A DNA stretch of 64,000 nucleotides, taken from assembly GCA_902812435.1 (NCBI GenBank), contig CADDZA010000001.1, forward strand, positions 1-64,000, in the 5' to 3' direction. The stretch's first letter is position 1; each line of letters starts with the position of its first letter. This document shows positions 4,331 to 61,414 of the stretch, one piece after another. The position numbers and the translations under genes are program-made. This stretch comes from Clostridia bacterium. Lineage in GTDB: Bacteria > Bacillota > DSM-12270 > Thermacetogeniales > Thermacetogeniaceae. Below the pieces are notes generated by a model. It did not search any database and was not told the origin of the DNA. It worked only from the letters and a program-made list of their open reading frames with translations.

Positions 4331-4539
4331 TTATCACCGGTATTGCGATATAGTACCAGCGTTTTTCCAGTTTACCCGGCAGGCACTATTAAAACTACAG
4401 CTGGCAGTAACTACCACGCCTTAAATGAGCAGCCCTTTCCCACCTCCCGTATCTATGATATAATAGTACCAGAAATTGGTGGGTAATGCCATGGTTGTAG
4501 TGGTGGCATGCTTACTCGTAAGATTTTAAAAGTAGGGGT

Positions 4540-4890
4540 ATGGATATGACTTCAAATAATAAAATTCTAAACCCTAAGATATCGAAAGTTACCAGAAAAT
4601 ACGTTCAACGGCTTAGGGAGAAAACCATTCCCGTCAAAACTGTCATTCTTTTTGGCTCTCAGGCCAGGGGTACCGCAGGAGAAGAATCCGATATTGACCT
4701 TTTGGTCGTCGTAGAAAAGCTGGATAGAAACATTCGTGAAACTATTATTGACGAAGCTTATAACGTGAGTTTGGAAGAAGATGTAGATTTGATCGCGCTT
4801 CCCTGCGACATTCAAGAATTTACTTCTCCTTTATTTCAGTCAGATGCTTTTTACAGAAACGTGCAAAATGACGGGGTGGTTATCAGATGA
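4540..4890 (+). CDS. MNT-type nucleotidyltransferase (MntA-like antitoxin)
   Basis: A 116-residue protein with the minimal nucleotidyltransferase signature: VILFGSQARGTAGEESDIDLLVVVE at about residues 34-58, giving the G-S-x(9-10)-D-x-D active-site pattern, and a third acidic residue in VDLIAL near residue 86. In MNT/HEPN pairs the enzyme adds AMP to the HEPN toxin and silences it. It overlaps the HEPN gene by 4 bp (ATGA). A TATAAT at 4459-4464 could be its -10 element, but the -35 is poor. The alternative start is ATG two codons later. Confidence 0.85.
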   Translation: MDMTSNNKILNPKISKVTRKYVQRLREKTIPVKTVILFGSQARGTAGEESDIDLLVVVEKLDRNIRETIIDEAYNVSLEEDVDLIALPCDIQEFTSPLFQSDAFYRNVQNDGVVIR

Positions 4891-5321
4891 GTGATATACA
4901 ATTAAAACATGACCTTGCCAGAGCAAAGATGGAAAAAGCGCGGGAAGCATGGGAGGAAGCACTGTGGTGTTTCAAGGGCGAAAAGTATCCGGCAACCGTA
5001 AATAGACTTTACTATTCCATGTACCGGGCATGCTTGGCGGTACTTACTTTTGAAAGTAAAATACCAGTTAAACATACGGCCGTAATTGGCTGCGTCAATA
5101 AAAAGTATGTGAAAGAAGGACTATTGCCCAAAGAACATGGAAGGTTTTTACATAGGCTCCAAACTGCAAGGGTAGAAGGCGATTACAAGGGAAAAGAATT
5201 TACCAGGTAAGAGGTAGAAGAATTAATTGCGTATGGAGAAACAGCGTTAACAGTAATGGAAAATCTTGTTGAGAAAATAATCTTTCAAAAGAAATTGAAA
5301 GGGTCATCCGAACTGGAGTAA
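4887..5321 (+). pseudogene. HEPN protein of the UPF0332 family, interrupted by an in-frame stop
   Basis: From ATG 4887 the frame encodes a UPF0332/HEPN protein: a first long helix, then NRLYYSMYRACLAVL (the conserved RLYY-x-M helix), KHTAVIGCVNKKYVKEGLLP and RLQTARVEGDYKGKEFT. A TAA at 5208-5210 stops it at 107 residues, but the same frame continues with EVEELIAYGETALTVMENLV to a second TAA at 5319-5321, which is the expected last helix of the family. So a single sense codon has become a stop. The shortened protein might still fold, but the last helix of the HEPN bundle is missing. It is the toxin partner of the MNT gene. Confidence 0.75.
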
Positions 5322-5351
5322 GGCTCGGGATACCTCATCCCCCAACACCTT

Positions 5352-5653
5352 TTAACTTCCGTACCTTGCTAAATAAGACCTCAACACCGCCTTAAACAGT
5401 GGGCCATGATTGAGTATCTTTATGAGTATCTTTAAATGAAACAACTCGTTAACTATAACTTCACCCCGAAAAGCTGCCGTTTTTTTAGTAATTCCGGCTC
5501 AAAGGTCAATCTCCCTTTGCTGGAACAGTTGGCCCATTTGTTTTTCATCGTCCGCAACTGAACCTGTTTTGGCTCTATTTCAATCCGCTTAGCCCAGGCG
5601 GCCACTTCTGTTCCAACTTCATCCAGGAAGATAAGAGATGCCTTCAGACCCAA
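5352..5653 (-). pseudogene. YgjP-type zinc metallopeptidase, frameshifted and active-site mutated
   Basis: The last gene of the BREX operon. The frame ending at 5453 contains VQLRTMKNKWANCSSKGRL and the following strand, the R-x-M-x-x-x-W-x-x-C-S motif of YgjP/DUF45 peptidases. The frame then stops; in the next frame the reading continues VIVNELFHLKI, then NHGPLFKAVLRSYL, to TAA near 5352. That is the peptidase helix, normally V-I-x-H-E-L-x-H; here the first metal-binding His is Asn. The N-terminal part is also short, with only a TTG and no ribosome-binding site. It is therefore a dead gene. YgjP-like peptidases occur at the ends of some BREX loci. Confidence 0.7.
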
Positions 5654-5656
5654 CCA

Positions 5657-6379
5657 TTACCGGTGTGCGATTGTGACCATGTCTAAATCCAAACCCTGAC
5701 GCTGTATTTCAAACCGTTTTGATTGTCTTATATCCGCCATCGAAATATCCAGGTGAAACGGAAAAGCTGTGGGCAGCTGGGGTAATTGTTGCAGGATCAC
5801 CGCTTGGGTGGCTTCCGAACACAGCAGGGCTTCTAAAAACCATAACTGAACACTGGCGCTGGCCGGACCTTTTTTGGCGGCGGGGATATAAACGCCTTTT
5901 ACGGCCGTATCCTGGAGAACGCCCCAGTCTACCATCGAACGTACCACTCGTTGGCTCGCCCGGCGAGCAGTTGACCTTTCCCCCCAGCGTTCCGCCAGCC
6001 GGCGGTAAATCTGCTCTAGGGAAACTTCGTTCTGCAGCGCCGACAGACGGCCAATAATATCCGCTATATCCCGAAAAAAAGGATAGGCCACAAGCGTCAT
6101 GCCCCAGTGCAACCAGAGTCTTGTATCGGGGCCATCCTCGGTTAGAATTCCTAAAGCCCGCTCCTGTAATGACCGGTGCTTCTGCGGTACCCTGACCCAA
6201 ATCCGGGTTAGTACGGTTATGGTCTTCCTGCGTGCCTCTCTACTTCGGCATTCTGACTGCAAGAAATCATCAAGGTATTTTCGTACCTCAGCAATGTCTG
6301 TTTCCGTTGCGGCTTTCCAGGCGGCGGCATCCAGCCATTCCAGCTTAACTCTCCGGTCAAAACCGATATTTAATGCCAT
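5657..6379 (-). CDS. brxA: BREX type 3 protein BrxA (DUF1819)
   Basis: A 240-residue protein read from ATG 6379, which is preceded by GGGAGGAG; an in-frame TTG two codons earlier is the alternative. The sequence pattern matches BrxA: a helical N-terminus with LEWLDAAAWKAA, the stretch SREARRKTITVLTRIWVRVP, WLHWGMTLVAYPFFRDI in the centre and RASQRVVRSMVDWGVL in the second winged-helix-like part. BrxA is a small helical DNA-binding protein of BREX systems. It begins 2 bp after the pglZ stop. Its position at the end of brxF-brxC-pglXI-brxHII-pglZ-brxA is the standard order for BREX type 3. Confidence 0.85.
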   Translation of the reverse strand: MALNIGFDRRVKLEWLDAAAWKAATETDIAEVRKYLDDFLQSECRSREARRKTITVLTRIWVRVPQKHRSLQERALGILTEDGPDTRLWLHWGMTLVAYPFFRDIADIIGRLSALQNEVSLEQIYRRLAERWGERSTARRASQRVVRSMVDWGVLQDTAVKGVYIPAAKKGPASASVQLWFLEALLCSEATQAVILQQLPQLPTAFPFHLDISMADIRQSKRFEIQRQGLDLDMVTIAHR

Positions 6380-6381
6380 GA

Positions 6382-8337
6382 TCAATGCTCCTCCCAAATC
6401 CTGACAAAAGGAACGACAACTTCTTCCAAAGATATTCCGCCGTGGCTTACGATTTCTTCACCCTCTGAGACAAAGGCCGACCGGCCCCTGGCCAGCAGCA
6501 CGGAGTAACCCTCGGGTAAACCAAAACCAGGCCAGCAGATAACATTGTCTATTTCTTCTATCATCTGCTGTCGAAAAACGTCGCAATGATAAATTCTGGC
6601 CCGCTCACCGCGGGTTTCAGCCAGGACTCCGTCCGGCAAACGGCCCCTTCCTCTGGCTGCGATATTGCCGTGATCCGAAGTCAGATAAACGGCAAACTTG
6701 TTCTTCAGGAGATAATCAATCAGCTGCACCAGGTAACCCTGTTCAGCCCACAACCTGACTTGTTGGTGCATACCGGCTGTCCCCAGCTCCATGCCGTGCA
6801 TGATTCTGTCCACTTTATCTATAACCAGACCCACGATCTCGAACTGTGATCCTAAAAATTCATCAATTTCACTTACCAACTCGTCATCTAAACCTTTATT
6901 GTAGTAGATATTTTCCCTCCTGACCCTGCTGTCTTCCCAGAATTTATGCCAGTGCTGTCCTTCTTTCAAGGTTGTCGTCAGAGTGTCCTTGAAATACAGG
7001 GGCGGCTCTGCAGCGAACAGCGCCTGCCGTGAGATAGAAGTTAACGTCGGTACCCAGGCAAAGACCTGGTTTTCCTCGAGTCGCCACGCCGGGCACCTGT
7101 CTCTCAGGAAATTGCGGATAACCAGCCATTGATCCAACGCCAGGCCGTCAATGACGATCAGGGCGATCTTTTTTGCTCCCTCTTTGAGGCGCAGATGGGC
7201 GAGATAGCGGGGGATGTGGTGCACCATCACCGGTCTGGAAGTATAGGGGAGGTTGGCCAGGGAGCCGTAGCGCACGAGCATCCAGCTCGCAAAGCGCTCT
7301 TCCAATTGATCGTGCAATTCCTCAATTTGCGGTTTGCTTTTAGTTTTTATGTCCTGATTCAGTTCACCGCTAAGCACAATCAATTCCGCCCACAGAACGG
7401 CCAGGCGCTGCCAATCCCTGTGGGACGCTGTTTCTCCAGTCAAATCTTGTTGTATCTTCTCCAGCAGCCACTTGATCCTGCGCCTTTCCTCAGCCTGCTT
7501 ATCGAAGAGTACACCTGCCAGGACCCAGGCGGGCATACCTTCCGTACTCGCAACCGGAACAGGCCTTAAACTGCCTTCCAAGAACAGGTTGTCGATGTAC
7601 ACCCGTATGTCATAATGGTCAAAGGGGACCTCGGTGAAATTCTCTCCTCTGGCCGTGCTTTCCAGGAAGCGACGCCATTTTTCTTGCAGGAAAGCAAAAA
7701 AGGCTTCCCTGCTGGGGATGATGTCTTCCAGCGGCCAGTTCTTAAAAACGCTCTTTTCTCTTAAACAATGGATAAGGTATTCGTCTAAAACCCTTGGCAC
7801 TGTCACAAAGCTGCAATGCCGCGAAAGCAGCATCTTCATCAGTTCAACCGGTGAATTGATCAGGTCGGGTATTATGCCAAAAACGCGTTTTAAGATATAA
7901 TCCTTGGTCGCCCTCTCTCCCAGCGCAGGACCATTGTAATCCTGGTACGCCCTGTAAAGCTTATCCAGATCCGACTTCTCCACAGCCGCAACTACCGGAT
8001 AGCTGAGTTTGGGAAAGATACCGGCCAGGCTGAAGAAAAGCTTATGACCCCTCTGCCATACATCGAAGGGGAGGCGGCGCAGTTCCTGCGGGCCGCCCTG
8101 TACCACCACTACCAAATGTGCCGCTTCGCCCCGATCCCACCTGGAGCGATACTTTGCTTCATACGCATAACGAAAGGTGATAGGATCACTAAAAACAAGG
8201 ATATCAAACCCCATTTCCCCTAAGGTCGAGAGAACATCTTCTTCCAAGAGCAAGCCGTCGGGGTCAGCCGCTAAAGTAAGCCTTGATACGCCTGGCTGTA
8301 AGTTCTGAAGGATGCGGTGGCGCCAGTTCATGGTCAT
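6382..8337 (-). CDS. pglZ: BREX phosphatase-superfamily protein PglZ
   Basis: A 651-residue protein. The alkaline-phosphatase-like core is visible in the second half: KKIALIVIDGLALDQWLVI (first metal-binding Asp in the I-D-G-L-A-x-D-Q-W form typical of PglZ), a central EFLGSQFEIVGLVIDKVD region, and VYLTSDHGNIAARG (the D-H-G metal site). The N-terminal half is helical, as in other PglZ proteins. PglZ is the one component found in all BREX systems; its enzymatic role in defence is not settled. It overlaps brxHII by 4 bp and is followed 2 bp later by brxA. The length is close to normal and the frame is intact. Confidence 0.95.
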   Translation of the reverse strand: MTMNWRHRILQNLQPGVSRLTLAADPDGLLLEEDVLSTLGEMGFDILVFSDPITFRYAYEAKYRSRWDRGEAAHLVVVVQGGPQELRRLPFDVWQRGHKLFFSLAGIFPKLSYPVVAAVEKSDLDKLYRAYQDYNGPALGERATKDYILKRVFGIIPDLINSPVELMKMLLSRHCSFVTVPRVLDEYLIHCLREKSVFKNWPLEDIIPSREAFFAFLQEKWRRFLESTARGENFTEVPFDHYDIRVYIDNLFLEGSLRPVPVASTEGMPAWVLAGVLFDKQAEERRRIKWLLEKIQQDLTGETASHRDWQRLAVLWAELIVLSGELNQDIKTKSKPQIEELHDQLEERFASWMLVRYGSLANLPYTSRPVMVHHIPRYLAHLRLKEGAKKIALIVIDGLALDQWLVIRNFLRDRCPAWRLEENQVFAWVPTLTSISRQALFAAEPPLYFKDTLTTTLKEGQHWHKFWEDSRVRRENIYYNKGLDDELVSEIDEFLGSQFEIVGLVIDKVDRIMHGMELGTAGMHQQVRLWAEQGYLVQLIDYLLKNKFAVYLTSDHGNIAARGRGRLPDGVLAETRGERARIYHCDVFRQQMIEEIDNVICWPGFGLPEGYSVLLARGRSAFVSEGEEIVSHGGISLEEVVVPFVRIWEEH

Positions 8338-11174
8338 GCACCTTCTATGTACATAATGATAATTGCGCTAAGTTCCGGCAAGATTTTTTCCTTCTGCTGC
8401 AAACGCAGGGCCCATTCTTTCTCTTCGCGTTCCAGTTCGGCCAGGCGGTGCTGGCGCACGGCGGTGAGACCTATCCTCGTAATGGCCTGCCGGCGAATTT
8501 GGAACGCATATTGGCCTTTTTCCCGCTCTTTCTGCAGGTGCTCTTCATACTGGTTCTTGAGTTCCAGGAAAAGATTATGCCCGTATCGTACAGCCTGTTT
8601 CTGGAGCTTCTCAAAGATTTCCTCGGATTTTTCGCCTGTAATATAGCCCTGGATTTCGAGGGAGGTTTCTTCCTGTAATAACAAATCCCATATCCTGCGG
8701 GCGGTGGGCATGAGTATTTTACCGTCTTTTTCCTGCTCGAACAAGGGTAGAACCCGAACCTCACGCATGTTTTCCGCCATAAGAGATATCCGCCATAAAG
8801 ACCAGTAGCCGCTTATCTCCTGCGGTAGTCCTTTGAGCCTGACCTTCGCAACGGACTGACCCGCCACGGCCAGGGGCAGGCGGGAGACCAGCCCGCGAAC
8901 TCTCGGTTCTTCCAGGCTGAGATAAGACATTGAGTGCTTATCAGCTTCCTGCCGGGAGAAAGCCACGTCTTTCATAGTGAAGCCATCGGGCCAGGTCAAA
9001 TCATAACCTTCCAATTTGGGCTTCACTACGCCGCCTTCGCTTACCAAAAAGTTAACGGTCATGCGCTCTACCCAGTACGGCAGCGGATGGCCGGAAATCT
9101 TCTCCACCAGCCGGGAATCGAGCTGTTCCTCTTCTCCCAAAAGCCGGTTGGCCATAGTTACTTCCTGGATGCGCTGCCTAAGTTCAGCCTCCAGCCGCTC
9201 AATACGGGACTCAACTTCTTCCGGCCTGAGGATAGCCTCTTTATACAAATCCTCGAAATCAGACGCTATCTCGGCCGAGTCGAGAACATCGCTCATCTTG
9301 TCAACGCCGAAATCCGCCAGGATTGCGGCCAGTTTTTCCTGGAGGACTTCCTGCACCCGGTATTCAATAGTGTCCTGCAGGACGAAGTTGAGTGCCCAGA
9401 CAACGTGTTCCTGGCCGATGCGGTCCACCCGGCCGATGCGCTGCTCCAGGCGCATGGGGTTCCACGGCAGGTCGTAGTTGATGACCACGTGGCAAAACTG
9501 CAGATTCAAACCCTCGCCGCCGGCATCGGTGGATACAAGCACCCTGGCGGGACCGGCAAATTCCTGCTGGACTTTTCGCCTTTCTTCCAGCCCCATGGAC
9601 CCGTTTAGACAAACGACACTAAAACCCCTGTTTTCCAGAAACTCCTTGAGCATCTCCTGGGTCGGAATGAACTCTGTAAAGATGAGAAACTTGAGCTCGG
9701 GGTCGTTCTCTTCGGCCTGCAGCCGGTACATCCACTCCAGCAAGGCCTCGGCCCGCGCGTCGGGCTGGGACTCGCACTGACGTGCCAGGGATAAAAGACG
9801 CTTGACCTCTTCCCGTTCACTGGCAAAGGCGACTAAACGGTACTTCAGAATTTGCTCGAGCTGCTCCTGCCCGTCAAGGTCCCACCAGTCTTCTTCCAGC
9901 TCTATTTCACCGTTAATTTGAAATGGAGCTTCCTGTTCAATCACTTCCAGTCTCCGTTCCAAGGCGGTCCGGATTGCCCTGGTGCTGCTGGCTACCAGGC
10001 GCTGCATGAGAACCATCAAAAAGCCGATGTAGTTTCGCTTTTCTTTCAGCGCCCGGTTGTATCCTTCCCGCACATATTCCGTCACCGCCTCGTATAGTTC
10101 CCGCTGCATCTGATGCCGGGACTGCCATACCACGGGCACCAGCTGGGTTCGGCGCGGTTTGAATAACGGCTGACCTTTCTCATCAATGGCCCGGCGTTTT
10201 TCGGTGCGGATTACGTACGGGGCCACTCTCTCCCGCTTTATGGACTCGACGCCAGGAAAAGCCTCCTTATCAAGGAGGGCCATAAGCCGGTGGAAGGAAT
10301 CAGTTTTTCCCTGGTGGGGTGTCGCCGTGAGAAGGAGAAGATATGGTGCAGCTTCAGCCAGCCCCTGACCGAGGCGGTATCTGGCCACGGTATCCGTGCT
10401 GCCGGCAATTCGGTGGGCTTCATCGACAATAATCAAATCCCAACCCGCAGCAAGAAGGTTTTCGAAGCGTTCCCGGTTATAGCGGCTTACCTGCTCTCTG
10501 CTCCATCCCCGGCGCGATTCCAAAGGCTTTATGGCATCCATAGGAACGACTACCTGGTCAAACCGCTGCCAGACGTTGGCATCCCATTCAAAGTACGACA
10601 GAGCTGTGATCTCGGCGGGCATCAGCAGGTGAAAGCGTTCCCGAAAGCGGTTTTCCATTTCCTGCACCCACTGCATCACCAGGCCCTTCGGTGCCACCAC
10701 CAGCGTGCGTCTGACGAGCCCCCTGAGCTTCAGCTCGCGCATGATTAAACCGGTTTCTATTGTTTTGCCGAGGCCGACCTCGTCAGCCAGAAGATACCGG
10801 ACCCTGCTCTTGGAAACAGCCCGGGAAAGGGCGTAGAGCTGGTGGGGCAAAGGAGTAACGCTGCCTTCGAGAGGCGCCAGCAGGACATCCGGCCGGGCCA
10901 GGCTTTCAGCGATTCGGGCCGCAGCGACGGTGTAAATCAGCCTCTCCCGGCTGGATATGTCTGCCTGTGTTATCGAGGATAACTCGTTTTCCTGAAGGCG
11001 GATAACCGAATCCCGGCCCGGCACCCAGACGCGGTAGACGTTCTTTCCCCACAGGTCCAGGGCTTCAATAACCTTCACCGGTTCACGGTACTCCCGGCTC
11101 CAGGCCCAGTCACCGGGCCGCCATCTACCATCCCGCCTCAAAACCGACACCTCACCGGCCAATAAATCATTCAT
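8334..11174 (-). CDS. brxHII: BREX type 3 SNF2-family helicase BrxHII
   Basis: A 946-residue SF2/SNF2 helicase. Motifs in order: LPHQLYALSRAV (Q-like), LLADEVGLGKTIETGLI (Walker A), TLVVAPKGLVMQWVQE, LIIVDEAHRI (DEAH box), LLLLTATPHQGK, then the second RecA domain with LIFTEFIPTQEML, VLVSTDAGGEGLNLQF and NPMRLEQRIGRVDRIGQ (motif VI). A helical C-terminal part of about 300 residues follows. In BREX type 3 this helicase replaces the Lon-like or other accessory genes of other types. It starts at ATG 11174 within the end of pglXI (8-bp overlap), so translation is coupled. Intact. Confidence 0.95.
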   Translation of the reverse strand: MNDLLAGEVSVLRRDGRWRPGDWAWSREYREPVKVIEALDLWGKNVYRVWVPGRDSVIRLQENELSSITQADISSRERLIYTVAAARIAESLARPDVLLAPLEGSVTPLPHQLYALSRAVSKSRVRYLLADEVGLGKTIETGLIMRELKLRGLVRRTLVVAPKGLVMQWVQEMENRFRERFHLLMPAEITALSYFEWDANVWQRFDQVVVPMDAIKPLESRRGWSREQVSRYNRERFENLLAAGWDLIIVDEAHRIAGSTDTVARYRLGQGLAEAAPYLLLLTATPHQGKTDSFHRLMALLDKEAFPGVESIKRERVAPYVIRTEKRRAIDEKGQPLFKPRRTQLVPVVWQSRHQMQRELYEAVTEYVREGYNRALKEKRNYIGFLMVLMQRLVASSTRAIRTALERRLEVIEQEAPFQINGEIELEEDWWDLDGQEQLEQILKYRLVAFASEREEVKRLLSLARQCESQPDARAEALLEWMYRLQAEENDPELKFLIFTEFIPTQEMLKEFLENRGFSVVCLNGSMGLEERRKVQQEFAGPARVLVSTDAGGEGLNLQFCHVVINYDLPWNPMRLEQRIGRVDRIGQEHVVWALNFVLQDTIEYRVQEVLQEKLAAILADFGVDKMSDVLDSAEIASDFEDLYKEAILRPEEVESRIERLEAELRQRIQEVTMANRLLGEEEQLDSRLVEKISGHPLPYWVERMTVNFLVSEGGVVKPKLEGYDLTWPDGFTMKDVAFSRQEADKHSMSYLSLEEPRVRGLVSRLPLAVAGQSVAKVRLKGLPQEISGYWSLWRISLMAENMREVRVLPLFEQEKDGKILMPTARRIWDLLLQEETSLEIQGYITGEKSEEIFEKLQKQAVRYGHNLFLELKNQYEEHLQKEREKGQYAFQIRRQAITRIGLTAVRQHRLAELEREEKEWALRLQQKEKILPELSAIIIMYIEGA

Positions 11175-58215: not shown

Positions 58216-59922
58216 ATGAGGTGGTTTTTGCGGGTTGTCAAAAACGCTCTGCTGCTTCTGGTCCTGCCGCTGTTCTGGTGGGGCCCTGTGGTTCATCCAC
58301 ATATTAACAGGTTGGCTTTGAGAAAGGCAGAGAAGGAACTGGAGGCAGGGGACCGGACAATCAATGAGGATATGGTCAGGCGTTTGAAAAAGAATGAGGA
58401 AGCCTTTTTCTTCGGCGGGAACAGCGCCGACGCTGTTTCCGCCTACCATGTGTTGAGCAACATCTCGATTTACGATTACGCTCATAACGCAATTCCAGAC
58501 GAGGTTAACGGTATACCCCATTTCGGTTACACCCTGATCGACGAATGGTGGCGGGCATACCAGTGGGCAATGCCCGGTATCCGGTACACGGATCACGATT
58601 TCGCCGTTGCCTGCGGCTGGCTTGCCCACCAGCTTGCCGACTGGTACCCGCACTACGCTGCTGTGGATTGTAAGGGCAATTTGGTTGATAACGGTTATGC
58701 CGGGGCTGATAACAGGAAGATCTTTTCGGGTTTTTCGAACTCACACCGTGTTTTTGGGGCCGACTACTACCCCGAAATCCTTGCCAGTTACGTAGTGGCC
58801 GACCATGCCCTGATTGAGTTCTTTTTCGATTTACTGGTGATGCAGGGCGACAGGGGGTTCTTTGACCGGAATAGAGTCGAACTCTTCGAGACACGAAGCG
58901 TTGGCGGCAAGCTTCGGAACCTCCTCACCGCGGCTTCGGAGAGATACTACGGACATGCGGTGCGCATTCCTCCCGAACACATTCCCCAACTTGCGGATAC
59001 CTTCAACTCTGTAATCAGAGGTATTCAGTTCTTCATTGAGCTGGCCGTTTTCCTCAGACCGTCTCTTGTTTACGCTCTCAAAAACACCATTGATCCCGCC
59101 ATCACCGGTGGCCCTGACTATATTCAACTCTCGATTGACAGGGTGGTGGACGGCCTGTTCAGGAAGTCCTATGGGGAGATCTCGCAGCTGTCCCGTGAAA
59201 GGGTGGTGTTGTACCACACTTTGGAAAGCAGGAGCGGGTTGGCTGTAGTTAAAAGACCGGGTAACATCTTTTTTCCGGTGGTCAGGCAGTTGGGCACGAT
59301 CATTAACTTGAATCAGGCCATACCTGTGCTCAGGGGTTTTGAACACCTGTCAGTACCCATCAGGGTAGGATTTATTAAGATTAGGATTGACCTCCCGGGG
59401 CAACTGGCGAAATTGCTGATTTCATTCATCAAAGACAAAGGTGTGGACAACCTGTTCAAAAGAAATCACGATACCAACGCCCTTATGAGTTTCCTGGAGG
59501 AATTGCTGGTGGACGACGGCGCGGATTTATCGGTTCCCCTCCGCAATTTCAAGGCCAGCCTTAAACCCGTGGCCGAACTTGACGGCGATGAGCACCTGAC
59601 GGAAGCTGAACTTCTCAAGCAAATGATTGAAAGGCGGCAGATCGGGGTGCGGCTTGTCCCGGCCACGTCTCCGGAGCAGCCGGACTACTGTAAATTGCTG
59701 AACTCAAGGCGCCTGCTGTTCCGGGTTGACGGCTACGAGGTCAAGGAATACCCCGCTGTTTTCAAATTGAGAGAAAAATGGAACGGAAACGTTCTGGAAT
59801 TGACCTGCTCCCTTCTCAAGGAACTGAAAGCAGGCGTGCATCACTTATTTGTAGATATCTGGGACAATAGCAATATTCATTCCCGCTACCTGGATCTGGA
59901 GGTCTCTCTGGTTGACCGGTAA
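58216..59922 (+). CDS. Zinc-dependent phospholipase C-like membrane protein
   Basis: 568 residues. N-terminal anchor LLLLVLPLFWWGPVVHPHINRLALRKA; HPHIN and the following FFFGGNSADAV fit the start of the zinc-dependent phospholipase C family, with DHDFAVACGWLAHQLADWYPHY and VADHALIEFFFDLL giving further His and Asp ligands. The second half (from ~230) is of unknown fold. It is larger than usual phospholipase C (about 250-300). The function is inferred from the metal-site pattern. Alone on the plus strand. Confidence 0.75.
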   Translation: MRWFLRVVKNALLLLVLPLFWWGPVVHPHINRLALRKAEKELEAGDRTINEDMVRRLKKNEEAFFFGGNSADAVSAYHVLSNISIYDYAHNAIPDEVNGIPHFGYTLIDEWWRAYQWAMPGIRYTDHDFAVACGWLAHQLADWYPHYAAVDCKGNLVDNGYAGADNRKIFSGFSNSHRVFGADYYPEILASYVVADHALIEFFFDLLVMQGDRGFFDRNRVELFETRSVGGKLRNLLTAASERYYGHAVRIPPEHIPQLADTFNSVIRGIQFFIELAVFLRPSLVYALKNTIDPAITGGPDYIQLSIDRVVDGLFRKSYGEISQLSRERVVLYHTLESRSGLAVVKRPGNIFFPVVRQLGTIINLNQAIPVLRGFEHLSVPIRVGFIKIRIDLPGQLAKLLISFIKDKGVDNLFKRNHDTNALMSFLEELLVDDGADLSVPLRNFKASLKPVAELDGDEHLTEAELLKQMIERRQIGVRLVPATSPEQPDYCKLLNSRRLLFRVDGYEVKEYPAVFKLREKWNGNVLELTCSLLKELKAGVHHLFVDIWDNSNIHSRYLDLEVSLVDR

Positions 59923-60019
59923 TGGGCCAATGCCTCCGCCCAGCTTTTGCCAAGTTTCTGGAAAAACGGTTAAAGAATCGTGACACCTATTGAGGTGCCT
60001 TTCCTAAGGTAAAAAGTCC

Positions 60020-60068
60020 TTGCAATATAATGCAAAGAATGCAATAATAATAGCAATAATGCATTACG
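60020..60068 (+). promoter_or_regulatory. TGCAAT-rich operator-like cluster
   Basis: Four or five copies of TGCAA/TGCAT within 49 bases: a palindrome TTGCAATATAATGCAA at 60020-60035, then ATGCAATAATAATAGCAATAATGCAT to 60064. The distances are close to one helical turn. It ends about 25 bp before the HTH gene at 60093, which may bind it. Confidence 0.55.
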
Positions 60069-60092
60069 CTACCAGGGCGTGACGATGCATCA

Positions 60093-60494
60093 ATGCAAAG
60101 TTACATTACTGAAAAAATACAACTGTTACAATCTGAGCTATTACGGGCTCTTGACCGGAATGATTATCTGGCTGCTTTGAAAATAAGGGCGGCCCAAAAA
60201 GAGCTGGAAGAGTTGTTGGATGAAATTGAGAAACAGGAAAATGCAATGCACGATGCAATACGAGATGCGAAGAACTACTATACCAGCCGGGAAGCGGCCA
60301 GAATCCTGGGACTCGACCCCAGCAATGTAACGCGCAAAGCTACGGTCTTCCATGCCAGGAAGATCGGCGGCAAATGGTATTTCCCCAAAGATGTGATTGA
60401 CGAAGAGAGCAACAAAACGGGCAGGAGAGCGAAGCCTGGAAGAAAGCCGAAAAACGTACACCAGTCACCCGTCAAAGGGGGTGATTACAGGTGA
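60093..60494 (+). CDS. Excisionase-like helix-turn-helix protein with coiled coil
   Basis: 133 residues. A long N-terminal helix (IQLLQSELLRALDRND, AQKELEELLDEIEKQ) followed by an HTH of the excisionase/MerR-type: YYTSREAARILGLDPSNVTR, then HARKIGGKWYFPKDVIDE. The C-terminus is basic (RRAKPGRKPKN). So it is probably a DNA-binding dimer. It has a TGCAAT-rich leader and overlaps the FtsL-like gene by 4 bp. The partner suggests a link to cell division or sporulation. Not a named gene. Confidence 0.75.
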   Translation: MQSYITEKIQLLQSELLRALDRNDYLAALKIRAAQKELEELLDEIEKQENAMHDAIRDAKNYYTSREAARILGLDPSNVTRKATVFHARKIGGKWYFPKDVIDEESNKTGRRAKPGRKPKNVHQSPVKGGDYR

Positions 60495-60850
60495 GCTCTG
60501 CTGAACAGCTGGCGGAAAAATACGTCGGTTTCCCTGTCGCCCCGCCAAAGCCGGTTATAAAAGTAGAAAGGCGTGTGCTGGCCAGGTATGCCATTGCGAT
60601 TGCGCTGGTTCTGGCATTGACGGGAATGTTCTATACATATGAAAAGACCAGGGCGGTTGTCCTGGGTTATCAGGTCAGCAGCGCCCGTCGGTCCGTTCTC
60701 GAACTGCAGAGGAACAACAAGCTCCTGGAGTATAAGATAGCTGAACTCCAGTCCCCCGGCAGGGTTGAAAGGATCGCCAGGTCAAAACTAGGCATGACAG
60801 AGCCGGAAACCGTTTTGCCTGAAAACGAGATTTTCAATAAAGGGAAGTAA
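60491..60850 (+). CDS. FtsL/DivIC-like cell-division protein
   Basis: 119 residues from GTG 60491. Cytoplasmic part of ~35 residues, one membrane helix (YAIAIALVLALTGMFYTY), then a coiled coil (VLELQRNNKLLEYKIAELQS) ending in PGRVERIARSKLGM, the signature of FtsL and DivIC. It overlaps the HTH gene by 4 bp (ATGA-type). As FtsL is unstable and variable, this could be an additional copy; it is outside the dcw cluster here. Confidence 0.8.
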   Translation: MSSAEQLAEKYVGFPVAPPKPVIKVERRVLARYAIAIALVLALTGMFYTYEKTRAVVLGYQVSSARRSVLELQRNNKLLEYKIAELQSPGRVERIARSKLGMTEPETVLPENEIFNKGK

Positions 60851-60856
60851 AGGAGC

Positions 60857-61414
60857 TCACTCGGTGTAGCCGATCCCATCTTCCAGGGCCTTGAGCATGA
60901 TCTTTTTGTTTTCCTCCGTTATCCCTCCGTTTAAAGTCCAACCTGCTGCCGGGTAATGCGGCCTGGACTGCAGGTTCTTTTTATGCCTTTCGGCAAAGTT
61001 CTGTATCGAGCTGATGACGACGGCCGGGTTTCCGGCCGCCACCACGTTATCCGGGATGTCCCTGGTGACGACGCTACCTGCTCCGATAACCACGTTATCT
61101 CCAATTGTGACGCCGGGAAGAACAACACTTCCGGCTCCTATGAAAGTTCTTTTTCCGATGGAAACGCGCCCTACCTTGTAGTATCCCGTGTAGTTCCAGG
61201 TGCTGGCGTCATGTGCCAGGATGACGCACTTAGTGGTGATGAAACTATCATCCCCGATGGAGATCAGCCAGGGATAGGACGGGTCTATCAGAGCATCGTT
61301 GTCGATGAAAACATTCTTCCCCAACTGCAGTCCCCGTTTGACGAGAATCTCGATTTCAACGCGCCCCAGACTGCGGTAGACGATGTGACGTACCATTCTC
61401 TTTAAGAAGTTCAT
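60857..61414 (-). CDS. Hexapeptide-repeat acyltransferase
   Basis: 185 residues from ATG 61414, six bases after AGGTGA. Left-handed beta-helix: GLQLGKNVFIDNDALIDPSY, WLISIGDDSFITTKCVILAHD, RVSIGKRTFIGAGSVVLPGV, TIGDNVVIGAGSVVTRDIP, then DNVVAAGNPAVVI. The His in ILAHD is the catalytic residue of the maltose/galactoside O-acetyltransferase group. C-terminal helix unlike standard types. Acceptor sugar not known. Confidence 0.88.
   Translation of the reverse strand: MNFLKRMVRHIVYRSLGRVEIEILVKRGLQLGKNVFIDNDALIDPSYPWLISIGDDSFITTKCVILAHDASTWNYTGYYKVGRVSIGKRTFIGAGSVVLPGVTIGDNVVIGAGSVVTRDIPDNVVAAGNPAVVISSIQNFAERHKKNLQSRPHYPAAGWTLNGGITEENKKIMLKALEDGIGYTE

Follow-up and report, generated by a model that had tools for sequence, protein, structure and literature searches.

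Background

The closest described system is that of BldC of Streptomyces, a small MerR-like winged helix-turn-helix (HTH) protein of the HTH_17 group. In the excerpts of the reports considered here, BldC is a protein of 68 residues lacking a coiled-coil dimerisation domain, which binds 9-bp direct repeats (consensus AATTxxxxC, PMC5859096), arranged head-to-tail and variable in number, over promoters (PMC5859096, PMC11963761). RdfS and Xis, also of the HTH_17 group, are described in part of the same literature as forming oligomers along DNA, with roles in both transcription and recombination (PMC11963761). As for cell division, the portion of a further report considered here presents FtsL as a protein on which several division controls of Bacillus subtilis act (PMC6126333).

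We analysed a locus in which a protein of the HTH_17 group is encoded next to a protein of FtsL type. The window, i.e. the whole 64,000-nt stretch of DNA that was analysed, lies on contig C1 of a draft genome (G000) of 1.95 Mb, 85% complete. The HTH protein of the window is like BldC in being a small winged HTH protein of the HTH_17 group, but, unlike BldC, it is not a stand-alone winged HTH, an extra helical hairpin being confidently predicted at aa 2-60, and the TGCA words at its locus differ from the BldC consensus. Pairing with FtsL and an operator within the gene are not, to our knowledge, features of BldC. The protein shares the HTH_17 group with RdfS and Xis and has weak excisionase matches in PHROG, but its operon partner is FtsL-like and no recombinase-like ORF family was found beside the loci of one genus (g1). 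The partner, hereafter FtsL2, resembles FtsL/DivIC proteins in being short and in passing the DivIC cut-off; unlike FtsL, it falls under the FtsL cut-off, is encoded outside the dcw cluster, is without the C-terminal extension of the regular FtsL (FtsL1) and carries the motif G[YFH]P[LV] at its N terminus. The N-terminal hairpin of the HTH protein has the UVR hairpin (UvrB C-terminal domain, ClpC, McsA) among its best, non-significant, fold matches, but, unlike in the UVR proteins named, it is here fused to an HTH domain. In the parts considered of the literature on a second or paralogous FtsL, on FtsL beside an HTH or DNA-binding gene, and on UVR together with helix-turn-helix, no such pair is named.

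The HTH protein and FtsL2

The HTH gene (60093..60494, forward strand) encodes 133 aa, namely a predicted UVR-like hairpin (about aa 2-60), a winged HTH_17 domain (about aa 62-104) and a basic tail with the conserved C-terminal PGRKP, which we take to resemble an AT-hook. The HTH_17 domain (PF12728) passed the curated Pfam cut-off (29.9 bits versus 27, E 6.7e-7) and, with a loose limit of E 10, was listed for all eight aligned proteins (best E 3.2e-7). The second gene, ftsL2 (60491..60850, forward strand), has a GTG start that overlaps the stop of the HTH gene, and encodes an FtsL/DivIC-type bitopic protein of 119 aa. Its product passed the cut-off of DivIC (PF04977; E 8.8e-8, 32.3 bits versus 28.9) and was under the NCBIfam cut-off of FtsL (TIGR02209; E 5.1e-9, 35.9 bits versus 42.45). 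The HTH_17 and DivIC matches, with the overlapping stop and start, bear out the operon of an HTH gene and an FtsL-type gene that a first-pass annotation of the sequence had proposed. That annotation spoke of an FtsL-type division protein; the type holds, but the gene is a second, accessory copy, since the regular ftsL of the same genome is a separate gene in a dcw-type cluster on contig C30. There it is flanked by genes read as mraW and penicillin-binding protein, a place in the cluster (mraW-ftsL-pbp) that ftsL2 does not hold.

FtsL2 is 41% identical to FtsL1 of its own genome over aa 16-109, and its protein family suggests a role in division. By eye, the N-terminal G[YFH]P[LV] is found in FtsL2 of all eight genomes that hold the pair and is absent from the FtsL1 proteins listed. 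In two genomes of genus g7 (G008 and G019; loci L022 and L024), no ATG, GTG or TTG was seen by eye near the ribosome-binding site of ftsL2, where CTG is a possible start.

Two AlphaFold runs of the HTH protein (with one and two sequences, mean pLDDT 66.0 and 69.7, respectively) predicted a confident helical hairpin at aa 2-60 and a winged HTH of lower confidence. When the hairpin was searched against PDB folds with Foldseek, ClpC chains made up most of the best matches, and the UvrB C-terminal domain and McsA ranked below them; E-values were 0.67-3.3, none of them significant, and 1qoj aligned over 45 columns at 0.7 Å. The Pfam UVR domain (PF02151) did not reach its cut-off in the window protein (8.4 bits versus 21.5) and, up to E 10, was listed for four of the eight proteins with a best E of 0.16, which is not significant. 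A search of PDB by sequence gave no meaningful match. The UVR-like hairpin may dimerise or bind a partner.

Distribution and surroundings of the pair

Of the 61 genomes searched, 8 were found to encode the HTH protein; all of these are among the 20 genomes of its family, and in each of them an FtsL-type gene adjoins the HTH gene. The eight genomes belong to three genera (g1, g6 and g7), so that few independent events are represented; the HTH proteins of the two other genera are 52-59% identical to that of the window. A profile search of the phylum matched 7 of 398 genomes. Six of these belong to the family; the seventh, G320, lies outside it and gave a weak match to the HTH part alone (E 9.6e-7). 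The 61-genome and 398-genome sets overlap, and the second is without some family members. The HTH gene was not found in 12 family genomes, of which 11 gave a single FtsL match and one (G009) gave two partial ones, several of the family genomes being incomplete. No match at E 0.01 was obtained when the HTH protein was compared with 50,697 phage and 72,556 plasmid records, and no relative was confirmed in viral contigs.

In both g1 genomes the pair has a large hypothetical gene on one side and a hexapeptide transferase on the other, and in five of the six g6 and g7 genomes it adjoins, convergently, a gene read as rpoD (in the sixth, G019, the contig ends before). The surroundings thus vary between genera, and the conserved unit is the pair more than its neighbourhood. 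An FtsL tree with weak forks and long branches gave two changes for the origin of ftsL2, with no bootstrap tree giving one; on this tree the g1 copies and the g6/g7 copies may have one origin or two. Upstream of the pair, the window encodes a 568-aa protein (58216-59922) with a sub-threshold match to zinc-dependent phospholipase C, which adjoins the pair in G002 too.

TGCA array on the predicted promoter

Exact copies of TGCAAT are found at 60021, 60040, 60242 and 60254, confirming the repeats, upstream of the gene and in its body, that the first-pass annotation had pointed out. TGCA clusters in both places were also found in all eight genomes with the HTH gene, so a lack of conservation, which would have spoken against that annotation, is not what is observed. 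The palindrome described there is an imperfect one, TTGCAATATAATGCAA being palindromic, by eye, in 14 of its 16 positions only. Over the whole 64 kb of the window, TGCAAT is under-represented (13 copies on both strands versus a shuffle mean of 36).

The pattern TGCAWN{3,7}TGCAWN{3,7}TGCAW matched the window only at 60020-60044, once per strand (shuffle mean 0.03; 0 of 100 shuffles reached 2). The window has only two clusters of three TGCA with gaps of <=15 bp, 60021-60043 and 60242-60257, and the HTH locus holds both; two such clusters in 64 kb are not unusual per se (shuffle mean 0.96; 25 of 100 shuffles reached 2), and the unusual point is that both lie within 240 bp. Over 48 bp, TGCA reaches its highest density in the window from 60021 on, with four copies, and the 250 bp from 60021 hold nine.

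A promoter scan of 59900-60950 found exactly one site, TTGCAA-17-AATAAT with an extended -10 TG. Shuffles also yield one such site, no more than chance per kb, so the site is no evidence in itself; its elements are conserved across the eight loci, where TTGCAW-17-TGNMATAAT is kept without exception. All the repeats were read on the forward strand. Repeat 1 (TGCA at 60021-60024, in all eight loci) falls in the predicted -35 hexamer TTGCAA (60020..60025), of which TTGCA is invariant. Repeat 2, TGCAA (60031..60035), lies 10 bp from repeat 1 in the 17-bp spacer and has TGCA in seven loci, with TACA in G007. Repeat 3 is found 9 bp further and joins the extended -10 (TGC AATAAT, 60040..60048), with TGNMATAAT in all eight loci and TGCA in five, three g7 genomes having TGTC. 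Repeat 4, TGCATT (60060..60065), follows repeat 3 by 20 bp, past the transcription start predicted near 60055, and is kept in seven loci, G002 having TGTA. Further TGCAT and TGCA copies (60086..60097) cover the ribosome-binding region and the start codon in the g1 genomes, and extra copies lie upstream in g7 and in G007.

The first two steps between repeats are 10 and 9 bp in all eight loci, the last being 20 bp in five and 21 bp in three. Repeats about one helical turn apart are therefore a DNA feature of every locus; since TGCA is self-complementary, whether they are direct is ambiguous. In an alignment of the eight upstream regions on the coding strand, the match was convincing only around the array. 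In the 14 genomes searched, a model of the array, R1, recovered the eight sites that had trained it with E of at most 6.4e-11, and its best match in six same-family genomes without the HTH gene had E 0.022. As repeats 1 and 3 are core promoter elements, the evidence for an operator comes from repeats 2 and 4, the extra upstream copies and the co-occurrence of array and gene. The first-pass annotation had considered the upstream cluster as part of a leader: the cluster is real, but most of it is likelier to be the promoter itself, given the predicted -35 and -10, and this overlay makes transcription control likelier than a leader effect.

TGCA cluster within the gene and decayed copies

The in-gene cluster (60242..60257, forward strand; TGCA at 60242, 60247 and 60254) lies in the variable linker between hairpin and HTH domain. 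With the protein fixed and the codon usage of the contig, the linkers of the eight genes (codons 43-70, singled out for this test after having been seen) hold 23 TGCA versus 7.5 expected, with single-genome p values from 0.002 to 0.19, and the whole HTH genes hold 47 versus 25.9, the codon tables of three contigs resting on only 3 to 8 ORFs. A stricter test, a synonymous codon shuffle within each gene that retains the codon preferences of the gene itself, gave no significant TGCA excess in the eight genes (p 0.06-0.49); in its 24 tests of three related words in eight genes, three values were below 0.05, and [AG]ATGCA in the g1 genes accounts for two of these. The 360 bp 3′ of the HTH gene, mostly ftsL2, hold 0 to 3 TGCA.

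R1 also matched G019:C132 twice (E 2.6e-10 and 5e-5) and G008:C12 once (E 2.9e-4). These are three decayed copies, each with the array, remnants of the hairpin-coding sequence and the linker cluster; homology stops there, so none of them can make the HTH domain. One G019 copy, when translated, still matches along 56 residues (E 3e-9 among seven loci) but has internal stops, the frame of the other G019 copy is broken, and the G008 copy is crossed by a 92-aa frame although the start of its hairpin code is gone. Taking the functional G016 locus as reference, 7 of 14 TGCA sites were retained in all three copies versus 7 of 143 other 4-mers, and 0 of 238 circular shifts equalled that retention, in an alignment that may be anchored by the TGCA words themselves. 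The copies are related: by eye, the flanks of the G008:C12 copy correspond to those of both G019 copies, the latter resembling a duplication that flanks a 6-kb insert, so that the three represent one or two independent histories.

The stretch of about 6 kb between the two direct copies on G019:C132 (L087, about 4529-10506) holds genes read as a GntR-type regulator and of corrinoid/methyltransferase type. G008:C12 has a single decayed copy with the outer flanks of the G019:C132 segment.

Other TGCA-rich elements

At E 1e-3 or better R1 gave 12 matches, i.e. eight at the HTH gene, the three decayed copies and one elsewhere (G013:C84, E 9e-5), all in genomes holding the HTH gene. There were 49 matches at E 1 or better, and the surroundings were inspected for nine of those outside the promoters of the eight genes; matches in L090 and L093 were set aside, the array not being seen there. 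In G000, R1 had no second target better than E 0.27, and the pattern search gave one further match (C40:2476). The wider TGCAW pattern matched 17 of the 20 family genomes, mostly at sites without an array.

A second class of TGCA-rich elements is intergenic. Among the 20 family genomes, its model, R2, reached E 5.9e-10 or better in four, precisely the four g7 genomes (L088 5866-5985, L091 1372-1505, L092 6342-6462 and L159 about 439-650), three of the four elements having trained the model; weaker matches were found in G007 (E 0.004) and G019:C132 (E 0.01). The G013 element of this class also scores with R1 (E 9e-5). Two of the elements lie behind a gene read as superoxide dismutase, and that of G019 adjoins a stretch which recurs in the other genomes, is tRNA-like as read and lies about 300 bp from a called tRNA-Lys gene. 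A TGCA-rich element is also present in G017, 77% complete, in which the HTH gene was not found.

Discussion

We consider the operon to be, probably, an autoregulated dosage switch for an accessory FtsL, in which oligomers of the HTH_17 protein on the TGCA array repress their own operon. Precisely, copies of the protein would be arrayed along TGCAW units spaced by about one helical turn, a spacing that fits the oligomers formed along DNA in the HTH_17 group (BldC, RdfS, Xis). When plentiful, the protein would cover the -35, the spacer, the extended -10 and the start region and shut off RNA polymerase; that the array covers the promoter core argues for repression rather than activation. The in-gene cluster, about 200 bp downstream, may be a second docking point or auxiliary operator, acting by looping or as a roadblock. 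As ftsL2 overlaps or closely follows the HTH gene, the level of FtsL2 would be under the same feedback as the HTH protein. The gene pair, the conserved array, its overlap with promoter-like sequence, the co-occurrence of array and gene in the genomes searched and the sites persisting in decayed copies are observed; we infer which protein binds the repeats, that it represses and does not activate, the looping and the part of FtsL2 in division. Of the mechanisms that use all the parts, negative autoregulation by an oligomer bound along the array is the simplest.

It is unlikely that the conserved words are a promoter only, in which an AT-rich region would contain a -35 TTGCAW with an extended -10, all other copies being chance and no specific binder existing. 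Repeats 1 and 3 are indeed core elements, with the TTGCA and TG..ATAAT columns invariant in 8 of 8, and the within-gene codon test was non-significant for TGCA in all eight genes; but repeat 2 in the spacer and the downstream TGCATT, each kept in 7 of 8 at fixed distances, are no promoter parts, and the further upstream copies of g7 and G007, the in-gene cluster by contig codon usage and the sites persisting in decayed copies speak against it too. The array might instead be a real operator of another regulator of the family, with the HTH_17 protein acting elsewhere, since the link from protein to word is putative, a TGCA-rich element occurs in the incomplete G017, where the HTH gene was not found, and the G013 element scores with R1. 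We regard this as improbable, given that 11 of the 12 better R1 matches are at the gene or its decayed copies, with all 12 in gene-holding genomes, and that HTH_17 proteins bind such repeats in the parts of the reports considered. Control of translation by a leader hairpin is very unlikely: the region 60053-60110 folds somewhat better than its shuffles (z -2.25, 6 of 200 as good) and in the genome of the window pairs TGCAT copies across the ribosome-binding region, but the predicted transcription start falls downstream of repeats 1-3, no Rfam match exceeded the gathering score, the hairpin is not kept, by eye, in g6, and the in-gene cluster has no fold (z 0.03).

The excisionase matches in PHROG (E 1.4e-4 and 2e-4) and an ORF family read as integrase-like about 4 kb away in G007, G013 and G019 would suit a directionality factor of Xis type that a mobile element left behind, the repeats being Xis sites. 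This is highly improbable, as that ORF family is absent from the stretches listed around the two g1 loci, ftsL2 is adjacent in 8 of 8, the sites are on the gene's own promoter, and the phage, plasmid and viral-contig searches gave no relative. RacA and Noc are the comparison cases for a coupling of DNA sites to division, in which the protein would mark dispersed TGCA elements and act with the membrane protein FtsL2 to place or time division. The non-coding TGCA elements elsewhere in g7 genomes, and the N-terminal motif by which FtsL2 differs from the listed FtsL1 proteins, speak for it, but G000 offers one further pattern match and nothing else better than E 0.27 with R1, and the other elements are few, their strong matches being limited to g7; such a coupling is highly improbable. 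Also quite unlikely is a wider reading, in which the HTH protein would read TGCA arrays (at its own operon, in the decayed copies as bare sites and in the intergenic arrays of one genus) as chromosomal marks, FtsL2 would link their occupancy to divisome assembly, and ClpC/McsA turnover might act through the UVR-like hairpin.

Read as an autoregulated dosage switch, the locus appears to hold a small, uncharacterised DNA-binding protein that governs both its own gene and an additional ftsL in a few related, uncultured bacteria. An operator that lies inside a protein linker and outlives its gene would exemplify selection at the DNA level within a coding region. A second FtsL under a dedicated self-limiting regulator would be, if true, an instance in nature of division being controlled through the dosage of FtsL.
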